From Desulfovibrionaceae bacterium (GTDB lineage: Bacteria > Desulfobacterota > Desulfovibrionia > Desulfovibrionales > Desulfovibrionaceae), in contig JAFTDR010000204.1 of NCBI GenBank assembly GCA_017454105.1, positions 1 through 64,000 of the forward strand: 64,000 bases of DNA, read 5' to 3'. Shown here piece after piece: positions 20,198 through 61,538 of this stretch (position 1 is its first letter; every line of letters begins with the position of its first letter). Below the pieces are notes generated by a model. It ran no database searches. It was not told the origin of the DNA and worked only from the letters and a program-made list of their open reading frames with translations. Both the position numbers and the translations under genes were made by a program.

Positions 20198-20626
20198 TTA
20201 TTTCTTTTCAGTCGGTTCGCTGTCCGAACCGCTCTCTGCGTCTTGCTTCTCAAGACGTACCTCTTTTTTCTCTTTTTTGTCTTTCTTCTCTTTTTTATCC
20301 TTCTTATCCTTTTTTTCGACAACGCCGCCTACAGCTGAGCGCGAAAGACGCAGCTTCGCATCACCGCATTCAAGGAGGATCTCCTCTTTGTCGATTTCCA
20401 GGATTTTGCCAAGCAAGCCGCTGTGGGTGATGATCGCATCCCCCCTCCCAAGGCTCTCAAGCATCTCGCGGTGCGCCTTAGCCCTTTTCTGCTGCGGCCG
20501 AATCAAAAGAAACCAGAAAATGATGAACATGAGAATAAAAGGCATAAAGCTCGCGAGCATGCTCATGCCGTCGCCAGCAGGGGCGCCGGGCTGGGGGCCC
20601 ATCGCATACGCTATTTGTGCAAACAT
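20198..20626 (-). CDS. yajC: SecDF accessory protein YajC with lysine-rich tail
   Basis: YajC is the small membrane subunit of the SecDF complex. Residues about 20-45 form the single helix ending in the family motif L-L-I-R-P-Q-Q-K-R, followed by the cytoplasmic domain with G-D-x-I-I-T-H-S-G-L-L-G-K. After the normal end (about residue 100) there is an extra tail built of K-K-D-K-K-D and K-K-E-K-K-D units and then an acidic serine-rich end, unusual for the family. The start at 20626 is chosen over a start nine codons upstream because it gives the expected short N terminus and follows a GGAGG. Confidence 0.9.
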   Translation of the reverse strand: MFAQIAYAMGPQPGAPAGDGMSMLASFMPFILMFIIFWFLLIRPQQKRAKAHREMLESLGRGDAIITHSGLLGKILEIDKEEILLECGDAKLRLSRSAVGGVVEKKDKKDKKEKKDKKEKKEVRLEKQDAESGSDSEPTEKK

Positions 20627-25598: not shown

Positions 25599-26645
25599 CT
25601 AGCGCCCCATAAGTTCATTGAGTGAAAAATTGAGTTCAAGATCCGAGTAGGCCGCCGATGGCGGCGGAGGAAAGGCTCCGTTATTGCTCGTGCGCCATAT
25701 GGCGCTCACAGCAGACTGATCAAATTGGGCGTTGCCGGAGCTACGAGTGATTTTCGCCTCTTGCACCTTGCCCTGCATATCGACTTTCACGTTGATTGCG
25801 CAGGAAAGATTCTTCCGCGCAGTCGAGGCATACCCCCAATTGGGCCGAACCGCAAGCATAACCTGACCGCGGTAGACATCGGCGAGCCCTCCGCCTCCAG
25901 GCCCCCGGCCGCTCCCGCCACCACCGCCGCGCTTGCCCCCGGCCTCGCGCTTAGCCTGCGCTAAAGCCTGCTCGACGGCATTGCCGGTCTCGCCCTGCTC
26001 AAGGCGCGATGAGGCGTCTCGTCGCGCCTGTTTTAAGGCCGCAGCTACGGGATCGTCGGAGGATGAGTCGCGTTTGGTCTTTTTGTTTTCTTTGGGCTTG
26101 TCTTTGGTTTTTTCTTTCTGTTTTTCTTGGGTTTTTTCTTTCGGCTTGTCTTTCACTTTTTCTTTGGCGTCTTCTTTTTCTTTAGGCTTCTCTTTCTCTT
26201 TGGGCTTTTCTTTCACTTTTTCTTTCAGGAGAGGCTTGTCTGTATCCTTCGGCTTCGGCTTCGGTTTTTCCTTGACTTTTTCTTTTTCTTTGGGCTTGGG
26301 TTTTTCCTTCAGAGGCTCAACGTCCTTTTTTTCAGCCTGCTCCTCCGGAACAACTGCGGCTCGCGCCGGCTCCTTTAGCTTTGTCTCCCGCACTTCTTCC
26401 TGTTTGGGCGCTGCCACTTCCTTCCTTTTTGCCGGCGGCTGCGGCGCAAGTTCCCCAGATCCCGGTTCCCCCACATGCCCAAGAATATTCGAGGGGCTTT
26501 TGTTTCCGCCTATGTCGCCCTCGACAAGGCTGATCATAACTGCCTGCGGCTCAAGGCGGAGGGGGGGAGACGTCGGCCAGAACCAGAGTATGAGGAAAAA
26601 AAGAAGGTGCAGGCAAAGCGAGAGCAAAAAGGAATGCCATTGCAT
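25599..26645 (-). CDS. tolA: TolA-like cell-envelope protein with PKEK-repeat spacer
   Basis: TolA spans the periplasm from TolQR to Pal/TolB. The 348-residue protein has an N-terminal membrane helix (residues about 5-25), a very long spacer (about 85-195) of K-E-K-P-K-E-K units instead of the usual alanine-rich helix, a glycine-rich hinge near residue 240, and a C-terminal TolA/TonB-like domain with V-Y-R-G-Q-V-M near residue 260 and A-V-S-A-I-W near 315. Placed after tolR in the usual order Q-R-A. The repeat makes the minus-strand and plus-strand frames look open here; only this frame is real. Confidence 0.9.
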   Translation of the reverse strand: MQWHSFLLSLCLHLLFFLILWFWPTSPPLRLEPQAVMISLVEGDIGGNKSPSNILGHVGEPGSGELAPQPPAKRKEVAAPKQEEVRETKLKEPARAAVVPEEQAEKKDVEPLKEKPKPKEKEKVKEKPKPKPKDTDKPLLKEKVKEKPKEKEKPKEKEDAKEKVKDKPKEKTQEKQKEKTKDKPKENKKTKRDSSSDDPVAAALKQARRDASSRLEQGETGNAVEQALAQAKREAGGKRGGGGGSGRGPGGGGLADVYRGQVMLAVRPNWGYASTARKNLSCAINVKVDMQGKVQEAKITRSSGNAQFDQSAVSAIWRTSNNGAFPPPPSAAYSDLELNFSLNELMGR

Positions 26646-26660
26646 GCGAAGAACCTGTTC

Positions 26661-27077
26661 CTACGGCCCCTTGGCGGGCTCGGTGTCTTGAGCATCTGCC
26701 ATGATGCCCATTTTTTCAATTCCAACAGCCTTGATGCGCCCAATAACCGCGACAACTATGCCGTAGGGAACATCCTTGTCGGCCTTAAGAAAAAGTGTCC
26801 TATCCTTCTCCTTGACAAGGCGCCGCAGATAGTCCTCAAGCGAATCGAGATTGCCTACCTGATATTCCTCAAGAGAGAGGCTTCCGTCCCTCCCTATAGT
26901 GAGTGTCATGTGGTCGCTTTCTGTCGGAAGGACCTCTGCCTGCTTGGCTTGCGGCAAATCGACATCCAGGCCCTGGCTCATCATAGGTGTTGCGACCATG
27001 AAGATGATAAGCAAAACAAGCATGACATCAACAAAGGGAGTCACATTGATCTCTGATACAAAACGCCCACCTGCCAT
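26661..27077 (-). CDS. tolR: Tol-Pal proton channel subunit TolR
   Basis: TolR, an ExbD-type protein, uses proton flow with TolQ to energise TolA. The 138-residue product has the single helix with V-T-P-F-V-D-V-M-L-V-L-L near residue 15, including the essential aspartate, and a periplasmic domain with Q-G-L-D-V-D-L-P and G-I-V-V-A-V-I-G-R-I-K. The ATG at 27077 is chosen because GGAG lies before it and the product then begins close to the helix; it starts one base after the tolQ stop. Confidence 0.93.
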   Translation of the reverse strand: MAGGRFVSEINVTPFVDVMLVLLIIFMVATPMMSQGLDVDLPQAKQAEVLPTESDHMTLTIGRDGSLSLEEYQVGNLDSLEDYLRRLVKEKDRTLFLKADKDVPYGIVVAVIGRIKAVGIEKMGIMADAQDTEPAKGP

Positions 27078-27078
27078 A

Positions 27079-27774
27079 TCAGAGCTCCGTTGCGCCGGTT
27101 TTCTGGACTGTTCTGTGGGCATTGAGTTCGCGCTGAACGCGGTTTAAGAAATACCCGGCAAAATTCACAAGCAGGGTATCGATCTGGGAGAGCTTGCCCA
27201 TAAAGAGGTTGAAGCCAACAGTTGCGGGAATTGCGACACCAAGACCTATGGCTGTCGCAACCAGTGCCTCGGAAATACCGGGAGCGACTGTGGCAAGCGA
27301 GGCACTCTTAAGCAGGCCTATCGCGTGGAAGGAGTGCATGATGCCCCAGACTGTGCCGAAAAGACCGATAAAGGGGGCCGTATTTGATGTTGTCGCCAGA
27401 TAGGAGAGAGAGTTCTCAAGCCGCGCAACTTCGCTTGCGACCCCTTGTCGTAAGGCCCGCCGCACATTGTCGACAACAACATCCGATGAATTGCCCATTT
27501 CCTTTGAGCGGTTGAATTCAAGCACACCCTGGTGCGCCACATAGTACAGAGGAGAACTTGGATCGGCGCCGATCGACTGCACTGCGTCTCTCAGAGAACC
27601 AGACCTGTCAAAACGTTCAATGCCGGCCAAAGACTTGCGGTAGGCAGCCCCGAGCGAAAAAAACTTCGCGATCATCAGTCCCCAGCTCCCAATCGACATG
27701 CACAGAAGAATGCCAAGAACAATCTTGGACAGGAGCCCGGCCTGGCTGATCACCTGAAAAAAACTAAATTCCAT
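27079..27774 (-). CDS. tolQ: Tol-Pal proton channel subunit TolQ
   Basis: TolQ, an ExbB/MotA-type protein, forms the proton channel of the Tol motor. The 231-residue protein has a first helix near residues 15-35, a cytoplasmic loop, and two further helices near 130-190 with the family motif F-I-G-L-F-G-T-V-W-G-I-M and A-T-A-I-G-L-G-V-A-I-P. GGAG precedes the ATG at 27774. tolQ, tolR and tolA follow each other with almost no gaps, so they form one transcript. Confidence 0.95.
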   Translation of the reverse strand: MEFSFFQVISQAGLLSKIVLGILLCMSIGSWGLMIAKFFSLGAAYRKSLAGIERFDRSGSLRDAVQSIGADPSSPLYYVAHQGVLEFNRSKEMGNSSDVVVDNVRRALRQGVASEVARLENSLSYLATTSNTAPFIGLFGTVWGIMHSFHAIGLLKSASLATVAPGISEALVATAIGLGVAIPATVGFNLFMGKLSQIDTLLVNFAGYFLNRVQRELNAHRTVQKTGATEL

Positions 27775-52374: not shown

Positions 52375-53316
52375 TCACAGAAAGAGTCTTTCGCAGTCAA
52401 GCACAATGTCATTGACTGGCAAAGATGTGTAGGTAAAGGCGCTCACAAGCTCGTGCGGGTACCTTGGCGCCATGCCGGGATTTATTCCGGCTAGATAGGC
52501 GAGATACCCAACTATTGTCTCTGCCGCCACACATCTCTCGCGAAGCGAGGCAAGAGTAAGACTTTTATGGCGCTTCGCAAGACGGACTCCTGTCTGGTCG
52601 ATCAAAAGCGGGAAGTGGATATACTCGCTAGGCAGTGAGAGGCCAAGCAGGGTTTGCAGAATTCGCTGTCTTGCTGTTGAGACAAGAATGTCACGGCCGC
52701 GGACAACCTGGCTTATCCCCATAAGGGAATCGTCGATTGCGCAGCAAAGCTGATAGGAAAAAAGACCGTCTGAACGGCGGATCGGAAAATCGCCGCCATA
52801 GTCACAAGGTCCGAGCGACTGCAATCCATATACCCTGTCTGTAAATACTATATTTTCCGAAGGAACGCAAAGCCTAAGCGAGTGCTTATCCCCTGCCAAG
52901 AGGCGAGCTTGTACAATCTCTTGCGGAAGCTCCCTGCAGGTACCAGGATAGAAGGGTTGCCCATCGACACCGTTTGGGGCGCTCGCAAGCTCTTTCAGTT
53001 CCTTTCGTGTGCAGAAACAGGGATAGAGGTGGGGGGTAAGCTTGCAAAAAGCCTCTTCGTAGAGAGCTATGCGCTCGCTTTGGCGGTATGGCCCTTCATC
53101 CCAGTCAAGACCGAGCCAGCGCAGATCACGCATCAGTTGCTCGGCGAAAATTGGGCGCGAGCGCTGCGTGTCTATATCCTCTAGTCTTAAGATGAGACGG
53201 CCACCACACTTGCGTACAGCAAGCCACGCAAGTAAAAAAGCCCAGGCGTTTCCTAAATGAAGCAGGCCAGTTGGACTTGGAGCCAACCGGCCTGCGACTG
53301 TATTATTCATGAGCAT
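52375..53316 (-). CDS. gluQ: Glutamyl-Q tRNA(Asp) synthetase
   Basis: GluQ (YadB) attaches glutamate to queuosine in the anticodon loop of tRNA-Asp. The 313-residue protein is the catalytic half of a glutamyl-tRNA synthetase without anticodon-binding domain. It shows R-L-A-P-S-P-T-G-L-L-H-L-G-N near residue 9, the zinc-site cysteines C-F-C-T and C-R-E-L near residues 100-130, and K-R-H-K-S near residue 250 in place of KMSKS. Its start abuts the stop of the NlpC/P60 gene. Confidence 0.92.
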   Translation of the reverse strand: MLMNNTVAGRLAPSPTGLLHLGNAWAFLLAWLAVRKCGGRLILRLEDIDTQRSRPIFAEQLMRDLRWLGLDWDEGPYRQSERIALYEEAFCKLTPHLYPCFCTRKELKELASAPNGVDGQPFYPGTCRELPQEIVQARLLAGDKHSLRLCVPSENIVFTDRVYGLQSLGPCDYGGDFPIRRSDGLFSYQLCCAIDDSLMGISQVVRGRDILVSTARQRILQTLLGLSLPSEYIHFPLLIDQTGVRLAKRHKSLTLASLRERCVAAETIVGYLAYLAGINPGMAPRYPHELVSAFTYTSLPVNDIVLDCERLFL

Positions 53317-54501
53317 CTATTTTTTCTTCGACTTTTTTTCGTCACGCGAACGTTTGCTTGACGGACGATCCTCTTTGCGCCCAAGAGACTCTCCACTACG
53401 GCGAGATTCTTTCTTCATGTCGCGGGACTCTCTTTTGGACGGACGCTCCTTGCGGAAATCCTCACGCTTCCGTGAGCGTTCTGCACGCAAGTCCTCGCGC
53501 TCACGCTTCCGTGAGCGTTCAGAACGCACATCCTCGCGCTCGCGTTTACGTGAACGTTCAGAACGCACATCCTCGCGATCACGCTTCCGCGAGCGATCAG
53601 AGCGAAAATCCTCGCGATCCCGTACAGACGAAGACTTTCTCTCACGGCGCTCAGCGACAGTAATCTTTCTGTTCGAACGAGTACTCTCTTGTTTCGACCG
53701 AGAGAGCGATGAGCGTCTGTAACGACTCGCGTTTCTTGAGGTCCGGCTATCCTCACGGTGGGCGACAGACGGAGCTGTTCCCGCATCCTGCACGAGACGC
53801 CGTTCGGCCTGCGCGAGCAAATTTTCACGGCTGCCGATATGGATGCGTCGGGCGCTCAGAAAGGTATTGCGAAAATACGGATCGTCAAGCGAATTTATTT
53901 TGACACGGCTTCTTGTACGGGGGCTATGGATAAACTTGCCGTTGCCAACATAGATGCCAGAATGGTACCCGCGCTTCGGATGGCGGAAGGTCACAATGTC
54001 TCCAGCCTGCATATCTTCAAGACGGCCGACCCTCGACCCAACAACGGACTGCTCGCGTGCTGTTCTAGGCAGCCTAACACCGACATTGCCATATGCCCAG
54101 CAGACAAGACCCGAGCAGTCAAAACCGCCTGGAGCCATGCCGCCGAGTACGTAGGGAGTGCCGATCGCTGATTCAGCCGCGCGCAAAAGCTGACGACGTG
54201 TCTCAGGAAGATTAGACGGCAAAGTAAGAGTGCCGTAATTTCTTGAGGCACGTCTCTGTTTTGCTTTCTTTTTAGCGGGAAAGGGGGATTCGAGGCGTCC
54301 GCGATATCCGGCGAGTTCGCCAAGAGCCAGAGTTTCAATCTTCTGAGGAAAATAATATTCGTGATATTCGACAAAAAGGTCGTCTTGGGAATCCTCGTCA
54401 ACTGCCTGCGTTTTATTTCCGCACCCGCTCAAAGTCATGCAGCACAGCAGGAACAGCGACACTATAAGGACTGGTATTCTCTGCATTACGTAACCCAGCA
54501 T
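53317..54501 (-). CDS. NlpC/P60 lipoprotein with SR/RE-rich C-terminal tail
   Basis: The 394-residue product has a signal peptide with lipobox L-S-G-C near residue 28 and an NlpC/P60 peptidase domain (about 85-205) with catalytic Cys in F-D-C-S-G-L-V near residue 128 and His in Y-H-S-G-I-Y-V-G near residue 179. Such enzymes cut peptidoglycan stem peptides. From about residue 265 the chain changes into a ~130-residue tail of R, S, E, D and K with repeating units R-S-E-R-S-R-K-R-E-R-E-D-V, encoded by tandem 39-base DNA repeats between about 53460 and 53640. The start at 54501 is set by GGGGGAG; the frame upstream is not protein-like. Confidence 0.88.
   Translation of the reverse strand: MLGYVMQRIPVLIVSLFLLCCMTLSGCGNKTQAVDEDSQDDLFVEYHEYYFPQKIETLALGELAGYRGRLESPFPAKKKAKQRRASRNYGTLTLPSNLPETRRQLLRAAESAIGTPYVLGGMAPGGFDCSGLVCWAYGNVGVRLPRTAREQSVVGSRVGRLEDMQAGDIVTFRHPKRGYHSGIYVGNGKFIHSPRTRSRVKINSLDDPYFRNTFLSARRIHIGSRENLLAQAERRLVQDAGTAPSVAHREDSRTSRNASRYRRSSLSRSKQESTRSNRKITVAERRERKSSSVRDREDFRSDRSRKRDREDVRSERSRKREREDVRSERSRKREREDLRAERSRKREDFRKERPSKRESRDMKKESRRSGESLGRKEDRPSSKRSRDEKKSKKK
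53460..53640. repeat. Tandem 39-base repeats within the NlpC/P60 gene
   Basis: The segment repeats CGCTTCCGTGAGCGTTC-type units with GAACGCACATCCTCGCG between them, each encoding 13 residues of the R-S-E-R-S-R-K-R tail. About four to five imperfect copies are seen, and copy number may vary between strains. Confidence 0.75.
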
Positions 54502-58718: not shown

Positions 58719-58820
58719 AGGGCTTGAGCATTCGCATCAAACCCCGATTGGGGATTTGTGCGGCGAAATTCTCCGGCACACAAACCCAATCCATCAAGGA
58801 CACCATTACGTAGAGGAACC

Positions 58821-61538
58821 ATGCGTATGGCCACAGAACCAAAGAAAAAAAGCTTCTGGTCCAGTCTGTTCGGGAAAAAGGATCCCGAACCTACAAGAAC
58901 AGACGCAACAGAGGAAAGTGCGGCCCGGCCTGAGAGCGAGCGCCTGCCTGAATCAGCAACGCTTCGCGCGGAGGAACCAGCAAAGGAGGCTCCAGAAGAG
59001 GCTCTCAAAACAGCACCGGAAAGAGTATCGGAAAGAGTATCAGTGGATGCCGAAGCCGTAGAGGATGCGCTCGCAGAACCAGTCCCTGTTTTTGCGGATA
59101 CAAAATCATCCTCGCACAAGGCCGCGAAACGAATGATGGTGCGGTCACAGTCCTCTCAGATCCAGAAAAAGGCGAAGCGCCTGATTATCCCGCATAAGAA
59201 AGAGAAAGCGAGCGAAGAAGAAAATACTGCGCAAAAGAAGCGGGTTCAGAAAAAGACCTCCGCTAGCAAGAAGAAGGAAGCCCCCATTTTGGCAAAGGAA
59301 AGCGTCCAGCCAGCCAAAAAAGTGCCTAAACCGGAAAAGCCGGCGGCCGCAGCGCCCGCACCTGCGCCAGTCAGAGAGGAGAAAAAACAGGGCTTTTTTG
59401 CCTCGCTCTTCTCATCAAAGAAAAGCGAGCCTGTGAAGGCACCAGAGCCGCCAGTTGAGCAGGTAAAAAAAGAAGAGCCCGAGCCAGCCCCGGCAAAAAA
59501 GAGCCGCATCGATTTTATGAGAAAGAGGGCGAAGCATTCGCTCGAAGATTGGAGACAAGCGGAGCGAGCGCGGGTTTCGCAGGAAATGAGTAAAGACGAG
59601 CGCATGTGGGCTCAGCTTCAACAAGAGGTTCCTAAAGAGCCGGAAAAAACGCAGGATAAAAAAATCGAGAGTAAGAAAGTTGATACAAAGCCCGAATGGA
59701 CGAGCGATGTTCGTAAGACACCGGCCTATTCTAGCCAGGCCTCAAACAATATCCTCGAAAACTTTGGTATCAACGGTCTTATCCTCGCGCTCTTCCTTCT
59801 CTGCATCCAGACCATACCGGACATCCTGCACGCAACCAAGGGAACGTCCCTTTTCTCGCCCGCTGAATTTGCGAACATAAAGGCCTATCTGTCCACAGCT
59901 GCCTCTGGTCTGTGGATTGCGCCGACATCTGTCATGCCCGCGCAGTGGCCTGGATTCTACTGGCTCTCAACGGCCATCGCCCAGGTACTCCCGAATGAAC
60001 TGCTCATTCTGACCCTGTCAACACTTGCCGGCACAGCCTTAGCCGTGATTGCGACCTGGATTCTCTGCCGCGGAGCCTATGGCGGAACGACGGCCACAGC
60101 AGCGTCGCTCATCCTCGTGAGTACGCCGCTCTTTGCGCCTGTTGTCCACTTCTACGGACCAGCCGCTCTGGCCGGAGCCTTTGTCCTCCTCGCGATCTTT
60201 TTCTTTAGCCGCGGCTGGCTTGGCGATGGATCCTGGCTTTCTCTGCCACTCGCCTTCATCTGCACGGCCATCGCCGGTCTGACAGGCGGACTCTTCCATC
60301 TCCTGCTTCCTCTGATAACGAGCTTCTTTTTCCTCATCTGGTGTGGACGCTATCGCCGCGCCCAGCGTTCTGATGCGATTTTTGGCTTTTTCTGCTTTAT
60401 CGCCATTATCGCCGGCTGGTTCGGCTACATGTACGTTGTTGTCAAAAACGGCGCCTACATCAACAGTCTCTTGCGCTCCTCGTTTACAAGCCCGCTTGCG
60501 CTCGCAAACTGGTGGACTCCATTTCTTCTTCTCCTTGCCGGCACACTCCCGTGGCTCATCGCTCTCATCTTTCCTTCGTGGATACGCGTTATCGCCACGT
60601 CAATTCGCGCGCTCAAAGCCTCGCAAGGTGAAAACGCAGCGTCGACCTTTATCTGGTTCTCTCTCGCTGTTGGACTCGGTCTTGCCGTATGCGTGCAAAA
60701 GGATGCGCAGACAAGCGCGATAGTCTGTCTTCTCTTCATCATGGTCCCCCTGCTCGCAAAGACCGTTGTGCGCCTCTCAAAATTCGGCGCGCGCCTGTTT
60801 ATTTTCTCCTGCATGCTTCTTCTTTTTGTTGTTGGCTTGGTCTTCCTCTTGAGTTATTTCCCCTACGCGCATGAACAGGCATCCCTCTATCTTCCGGTTA
60901 TGCCGCCAAAAGACATTTTAAGCCAGCTCACAGCAATCAAAGCGCTTCCGATCATCGGCGGTATTCTTCTTGTCGCCGCCCTGTATCTCAAAACAAGTTT
61001 GAAACGCGGCGACACTGGACGCCTGGCCATCACGGGCGCATTCCTTGCGACAATACTGACCTTCCCGGCCAACTTCATGCTTGTCCGCGACATCTATAAG
61101 CATCCGATGATGCAACTGCAGTCACTCGCCCAGATTAAAGCACCGGCCGCTCAGCCAGCCAAAACGGAAGCCCCGAAAAAAGCCGAGCCGGCTGCCCCCG
61201 CAGAACAAAAAGCTCCGGCTGCGCAAAAGGCCCCTGAAGCGCAGAAGCCTGCTGCGAAGGAAGCTCCTAAGCCTGCTGAGGCTCAGAAGACCGAAGCACC
61301 GAAGCCTGCTAGCGCTCCAAAGACTGAAGCTCCCAAAGCCGAAGCGCCAAAGCCTGCTGACGCTCCAAAGACTGAGGCTCCCAAAGCCGAAGCTCCAAAG
61401 CCCGCTGACGCTCCAAAGACTGAAGCTCCCAAAGCCGAAGCGCCAAAGACTGAGGCACCCAAAACCGAAGCACCAAAGCCTGCTGACGCAAAACCAGCTG
61501 CACCACAAGAAAACGCTCCAAGCAAGCCTGCTAATTAA
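58821..61538 (+). CDS. Large membrane protein with charged N-terminal and proline-alanine C-terminal tails
   Basis: The 905-residue product has a highly charged, lysine- and proline-rich N-terminal region (residues about 1-305), then ten or so membrane helices (about 310-755) and a C-terminal tail (about 770-905) made of repeats such as K-P-A-D-A-P-K-T-E-A-P-K-A-E-A-P. The helical part resembles GT-C type polyprenyl glycosyltransferases in layout, but no acidic D-x-D or E-x-D motif was identified, so it is not assigned. AGAGG precedes the ATG at 58821; another ATG lies two codons later. A terminator follows at 61602-61632. Confidence 0.65.
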   Translation: MRMATEPKKKSFWSSLFGKKDPEPTRTDATEESAARPESERLPESATLRAEEPAKEAPEEALKTAPERVSERVSVDAEAVEDALAEPVPVFADTKSSSHKAAKRMMVRSQSSQIQKKAKRLIIPHKKEKASEEENTAQKKRVQKKTSASKKKEAPILAKESVQPAKKVPKPEKPAAAAPAPAPVREEKKQGFFASLFSSKKSEPVKAPEPPVEQVKKEEPEPAPAKKSRIDFMRKRAKHSLEDWRQAERARVSQEMSKDERMWAQLQQEVPKEPEKTQDKKIESKKVDTKPEWTSDVRKTPAYSSQASNNILENFGINGLILALFLLCIQTIPDILHATKGTSLFSPAEFANIKAYLSTAASGLWIAPTSVMPAQWPGFYWLSTAIAQVLPNELLILTLSTLAGTALAVIATWILCRGAYGGTTATAASLILVSTPLFAPVVHFYGPAALAGAFVLLAIFFFSRGWLGDGSWLSLPLAFICTAIAGLTGGLFHLLLPLITSFFFLIWCGRYRRAQRSDAIFGFFCFIAIIAGWFGYMYVVVKNGAYINSLLRSSFTSPLALANWWTPFLLLLAGTLPWLIALIFPSWIRVIATSIRALKASQGENAASTFIWFSLAVGLGLAVCVQKDAQTSAIVCLLFIMVPLLAKTVVRLSKFGARLFIFSCMLLLFVVGLVFLLSYFPYAHEQASLYLPVMPPKDILSQLTAIKALPIIGGILLVAALYLKTSLKRGDTGRLAITGAFLATILTFPANFMLVRDIYKHPMMQLQSLAQIKAPAAQPAKTEAPKKAEPAAPAEQKAPAAQKAPEAQKPAAKEAPKPAEAQKTEAPKPASAPKTEAPKAEAPKPADAPKTEAPKAEAPKPADAPKTEAPKAEAPKTEAPKTEAPKPADAKPAAPQENAPSKPAN
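61260..61510. repeat. Tandem repeat encoding the proline-alanine tail
   Basis: Units around AAGCCTGCTGACGCTCC and GCCGAAGC repeat five to seven times and encode A-P-K-T-E-A-P-K-A-E blocks. Confidence 0.75.

Follow-up and report, generated by a model that had tools for sequence, protein, structure and literature searches.

The basic tail of a predicted MepS-like lipoprotein from Desulfovibrionaceae appears to be conserved in net charge and not in arginine-serine content

Introduction

Why should a lipoprotein of the bacterial envelope end in a long run of arginine, serine and acidic residues reminiscent of a eukaryotic splicing factor? The question arises from a stretch of 64,000 nucleotides of a Desulfovibrionaceae bacterium (contig JAFTDR010000204.1; hereafter the window). 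An initial annotation had described the last ~130 residues of an NlpC/P60 protein encoded there as composed almost only of R, S, E, D and K. It regarded such tails as rare on secreted peptidoglycan hydrolases, and suggested binding to lipopolysaccharide (LPS) or peptidoglycan, or mimicry of SR proteins, among possible roles. A literature search found no paper on this Desulfovibrio protein. Here, we analyze its tail together with those of its orthologs in the genus that holds Candidatus Desulfovibrio kirbyi.

Results

The gene occupies positions 53317-54501 of the minus strand and was recognized as an ORF with a Pfam NlpC/P60 match, encoding a MepS/Spr-like lipoprotein of 394 aa from ATG 54501. 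This ATG is most likely the start: it is preceded by a GGGGGAG motif, and relatives begin at the same place. The putative lipoprotein signal peptide (54421-54501, minus strand) carries the lipobox LSGC, in which Cys27 is invariant in an alignment of 42 sequences. The +2 residue is Gly, as expected for a MepS-like outer-membrane lipoprotein, and not the Asp associated with inner-membrane retention; an outer-membrane location is predicted. Directly after the stop codon begins a gluQ-like gene (52375-53316, minus strand; class I glutamyl/glutaminyl tRNA synthetase catalytic domain, Pfam tRNA-synt_1c, 2.3e-48), and a same-strand gluQ lies downstream of the tailed gene in 65 loci, 2 of which repeat an already counted genome.

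The catalytic domain (53845-54162, minus strand; Pfam NLPC_P60, 1e-27) contains Cys129, His180 and His192, all three invariant in the 42 aligned sequences, as is characteristic of NlpC/P60 enzymes (peptidase family C40). An AF2 model built on 42 orthologs reached pLDDT >90 over approximately residues 97-222, and the best Foldseek matches of the domain were the E. coli MepS structures 8xud, 8xup and 7v6s, with ~33% identity. The protein scored 83.7 bits against the NCBIfam equivalog PRK10838.1, below the cut-off of 186, and we therefore call it MepS-like and do not file it as MepS. E. coli MepS (Spr) shares with it the lipobox Cys, a disordered N-terminal linker, the NlpC/P60 domain with the same Cys/His/His and a flexible C-terminus; however, it stops shortly past the domain with LSRS and lacks a basic tail of 150 aa. 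The protein is predicted to be an outer-membrane-anchored DD-endopeptidase of MepS-like type. Two paralogs encoded in its own genome (L002 and L003) have no tail.

Past the domain, a linker predicted to be partly helical (residues 228-267; 53701-53820, minus strand; AF2 helices 228-242 and 246-267) includes the sequence ENLxAQAExRL, which is conserved among relatives. The basic low-complexity C-terminal tail (53320-53775, minus strand) comprises 152 aa with a net charge of +29, and is unstructured from residue 268. R/S/E/D/K make up 84% of the 132 aa encoded by 53320-53715 and 88% of the best 100-aa window, and four in-frame 39-bp tandem repeats lie at 53461-53616 (minus strand; TRF, 84% matching), each encoding 13 aa of a REDVRSERSRKRE-like unit. 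The annotated composition is therefore real; the tail itself starts nearer 53775 than the 53715 originally given. Beyond residue 267 the model has pLDDT ~50 and no secondary structure, and this low confidence, together with composition, predicts an intrinsically disordered tail. The description of a charged, disordered extension on a secreted peptidoglycan hydrolase was in this respect borne out.

A frameshift or mis-assembled repeat, which had been named as a possible source of the tail, can be ruled out. The frame runs uninterrupted from the NlpC/P60 domain through the tail to TAG 53319-53317, the two alternative sense frames are interrupted by 1 and 11 stops, and relatives across the genus keep the tail. 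Opposite the tail lies an antisense ORF (53309-53722, plus strand, 137 aa) that is R/S-rich as well; we rejected it as a real gene, as it is a reverse-complement echo of the repeats and the own-genome search matched it only as their mirror.

Elsewhere in the window, the only stretches with at least 70% R/S/E/D/K were the antisense of the tail region and a K/E/P-rich segment near 26350 (70%), and searching the organism's own genome found no second RS/RE tail. Other low-complexity proteins were observed. One is a K/E/P-rich protein with a long KPKEKEK stretch (25599-26645, minus strand) beside a small ORF at 26661-27122, presumably a TolA/TonB-like and ExbD/TolR-like pair. An ORF at ~20200-20500 (minus strand), which we take to resemble YajC, has a KKDKKEKK-type tail, and a 926-aa membrane protein (58758-61538, plus strand) contains a 48-bp tandem repeat (61291-61452) encoding C-terminal EAPKPADAPKT-like units.

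The protein was found (E<=1e-35) in 72 of the 79 genomes of the genus, including 54 of the 55 of good quality. Two genomes (G072 and G078) have three good matches each, which suggests either that the tailed hydrolase has been duplicated or that the bins are mixed. The complete genus tails (n=71) are 79-245 aa long with net charges of +19 to +52, and every one of them is basic and of low complexity; in sister genera of the family, tails are shorter or variable (18-144 aa) and some matches are tail-less. The supposed rarity of such a tail thus needs qualifying, since within the genus it is the rule for this ortholog. Composition swings across the genus from R/S/E/D to K/A/S. Tandem repeats occur in 41 of the 71 tails (TRF), with periods mostly multiples of three, and their units (39, 72, 78, 81 bp and others) differ between clades. 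A distant clade (L073, L077) has long R-rich tails built of its own R/D/E/S repeats, RDRDRDEARSSRR units, with net charges of +32 to +33. The choice of R or K showed no correlation with GC among the tails, and GC bias was ruled out as its cause.

Net charge behaves otherwise. It remains close to +30 with little dependence on length, rising by ~+0.04 per residue compared to +0.23 for an unconstrained composition; K+R and D+E both climb with tail length, but net charge barely does, and its CV is 0.20 against 0.29 for tail length. Phylogenetic contrasts gave slopes of 0.04-0.07 per residue, with bootstrap upper bounds of 0.10-0.16, to be compared with a mean NCPR of 0.23. For 40 representatives, neither 5000 composition draws nor 20000 NCPR permutations produced a single slope this flat, and the SD of net charge was 6.3 as opposed to 10.8 in random draws from pooled composition. 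The effect is weaker without the first 30 residues of the tail (slope 0.08 vs 0.23). Because the tree underlying the contrasts is built from 137 columns and is weakly resolved, with many forks open, we take these results as good evidence, not proof, that the charge of the tail is under constraint. Judged from the orthologous sequences, what the tail conserves appears to be net charge and not SR dipeptides.

Discussion

The tails of this protein differ among relatives in letters and length and yet carry nearly equal total charge, so that the tail is probably an electrostatic tether to the envelope and not a copy of an animal splicing protein. The explanation we favor, to which we assign a probability of about 50%, is that an outer-membrane MepS-like endopeptidase bears a cationic disordered tail selected for its net charge, which would hold the enzyme on an anionic polymer of the envelope. 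The ~150-residue tail would then be a disordered polymer in which selection acts on a net charge of about +30 and not on sequence. It might bind the anionic envelope matrix through peptidoglycan carboxylates and/or LPS phosphates, and such tethering could restrict both the site and the duration of hydrolase action on the sacculus. Of the originally suggested roles, the evolutionary data (charge constrained, sequence free) most favor electrostatic binding, with LPS and peptidoglycan as candidate ligands. Net charge is commonly constrained in disordered regions, as described in yeast (PMC6634968), and the constraint alone therefore names no ligand. The best-studied disordered region of a cell-wall enzyme is that of B. 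subtilis PBP1, a C-terminal extension that affects where and when the enzyme acts and for which a role in pore sensing has been proposed (PMC13270295). It is an example of a disordered tail directing a cell-wall enzyme. However, this extension is anionic and belongs to a synthase of a Gram-positive cell wall, a different logic that counts against the tether.

It was suggested that the tail could mimic eukaryotic SR proteins in a host. The tail does resemble RS/RE repeats, with 26% of its residues in RS/SR dipeptides, and one member of the genus is recorded as Candidatus Desulfovibrio kirbyi, which is known from termite-gut protists. The likeness is not kept by descent, however, as L004, the ortholog closest in the tree, has only 7% of its tail residues in such dipeptides and tails elsewhere in the genus are of the K/A/S kind. 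An R/S-rich low-complexity tail is shared with SR and SR-related proteins of eukaryotes and bacteria alike, and since SR-related proteins occur in ~25-30% of bacterial and archaeal proteomes (PMC9479744), it is not extraordinary per se. The RS domain is defined there by at least 70% S+R in a 20-residue window; the best such window of our tail reaches 65%, and 2 of the 71 orthologs pass. Pfam found NLPC_P60 alone in the window protein and no RNA recognition motif, and the protein carries a lipoprotein signal for export. We consider mimicry unsupported and extremely improbable.

A tail without function of its own, a spacer generated by repeat slippage and tolerated on account of its solubility and disorder, would account for tandem repeats whose units are unlike between clades, and for a charge and composition that vary within limits. 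Neutral slippage, however, would not yield tails that are basic in 71 of 71 cases with net charge buffered against length, and the choice of R or K is independent of GC; we regard this explanation as unlikely. Binding of nucleic acid at the cell surface, for instance to extracellular DNA of a biofilm matrix, seems very unlikely. Strongly cationic disordered tails can generally bind nucleic acid, but this role requires that the lipoprotein be exposed on the surface.

A different possibility is that what matters in the tail is its conserved end, read by a protease as in E. coli MepS and as CtpA does with the MepS homologs of P. aeruginosa. In the 40 representatives, the two terminal positions stand out from background more than any others of the last 20 (z 8.4 and 7.2, the next being 3.4), although the representatives are still related, so that the z-scores overstate independence. 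Ser occupies position -1 in 26 of the 40 (46 of 71 overall) and K/N/R position -2 in 32. The terminal Ser is encoded by TCN in 45 of 46 cases, although AGY accounts for 35% of Ser codons at internal positions; variation within TCN but scarcely to AGY points to an inherited residue kept at the protein level. The organism's own genome has one S41 protease match (E 3.2e-55), taken as a C-terminal processing protease. A search of that genome found no Prc-type DUF3340 domain, so this protease is not of Prc type and a Prc-type enzyme was ruled out. E. coli MepS ends in LSRS, a peptide that modelling has placed in the Prc PDZ groove (PMC5686067), and the [K/N/R]-Ser end, the best-conserved point of the tail, recalls that C-terminus, which we treat as a lead only. 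PA1198 and PA1199 of P. aeruginosa are likewise MepS-like NlpC/P60 outer-membrane lipoproteins under a C-terminal processing protease, being degraded by CtpA; the part of that report drawn on here describes no long cationic tail on them (PMC6050968). Against this explanation, the window protein itself ends in KKK, and the constraint on net charge is left unexplained. We regard it as rather unlikely.

Charge-based tethering might also be combined with such an end. Selection across the genus would act on the net charge of a fast-turnover tail, repeatedly rebuilt from unrelated tandem repeats to give a tunable anchor, and [K/N/R]-Ser would serve as a separate protease-readable terminus. We hold this broader proposal only tentatively. 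If true, it would provide a bacterial cell-wall example of charge-conserved disorder. The ~70 orthologous tails, varied in sequence and length and similar in net charge, are a natural series on one enzyme. This series could be used to test directly whether total charge is sufficient to position such a peptidoglycan hydrolase within the Gram-negative envelope, and whether its turnover is set by the C-terminal residues.
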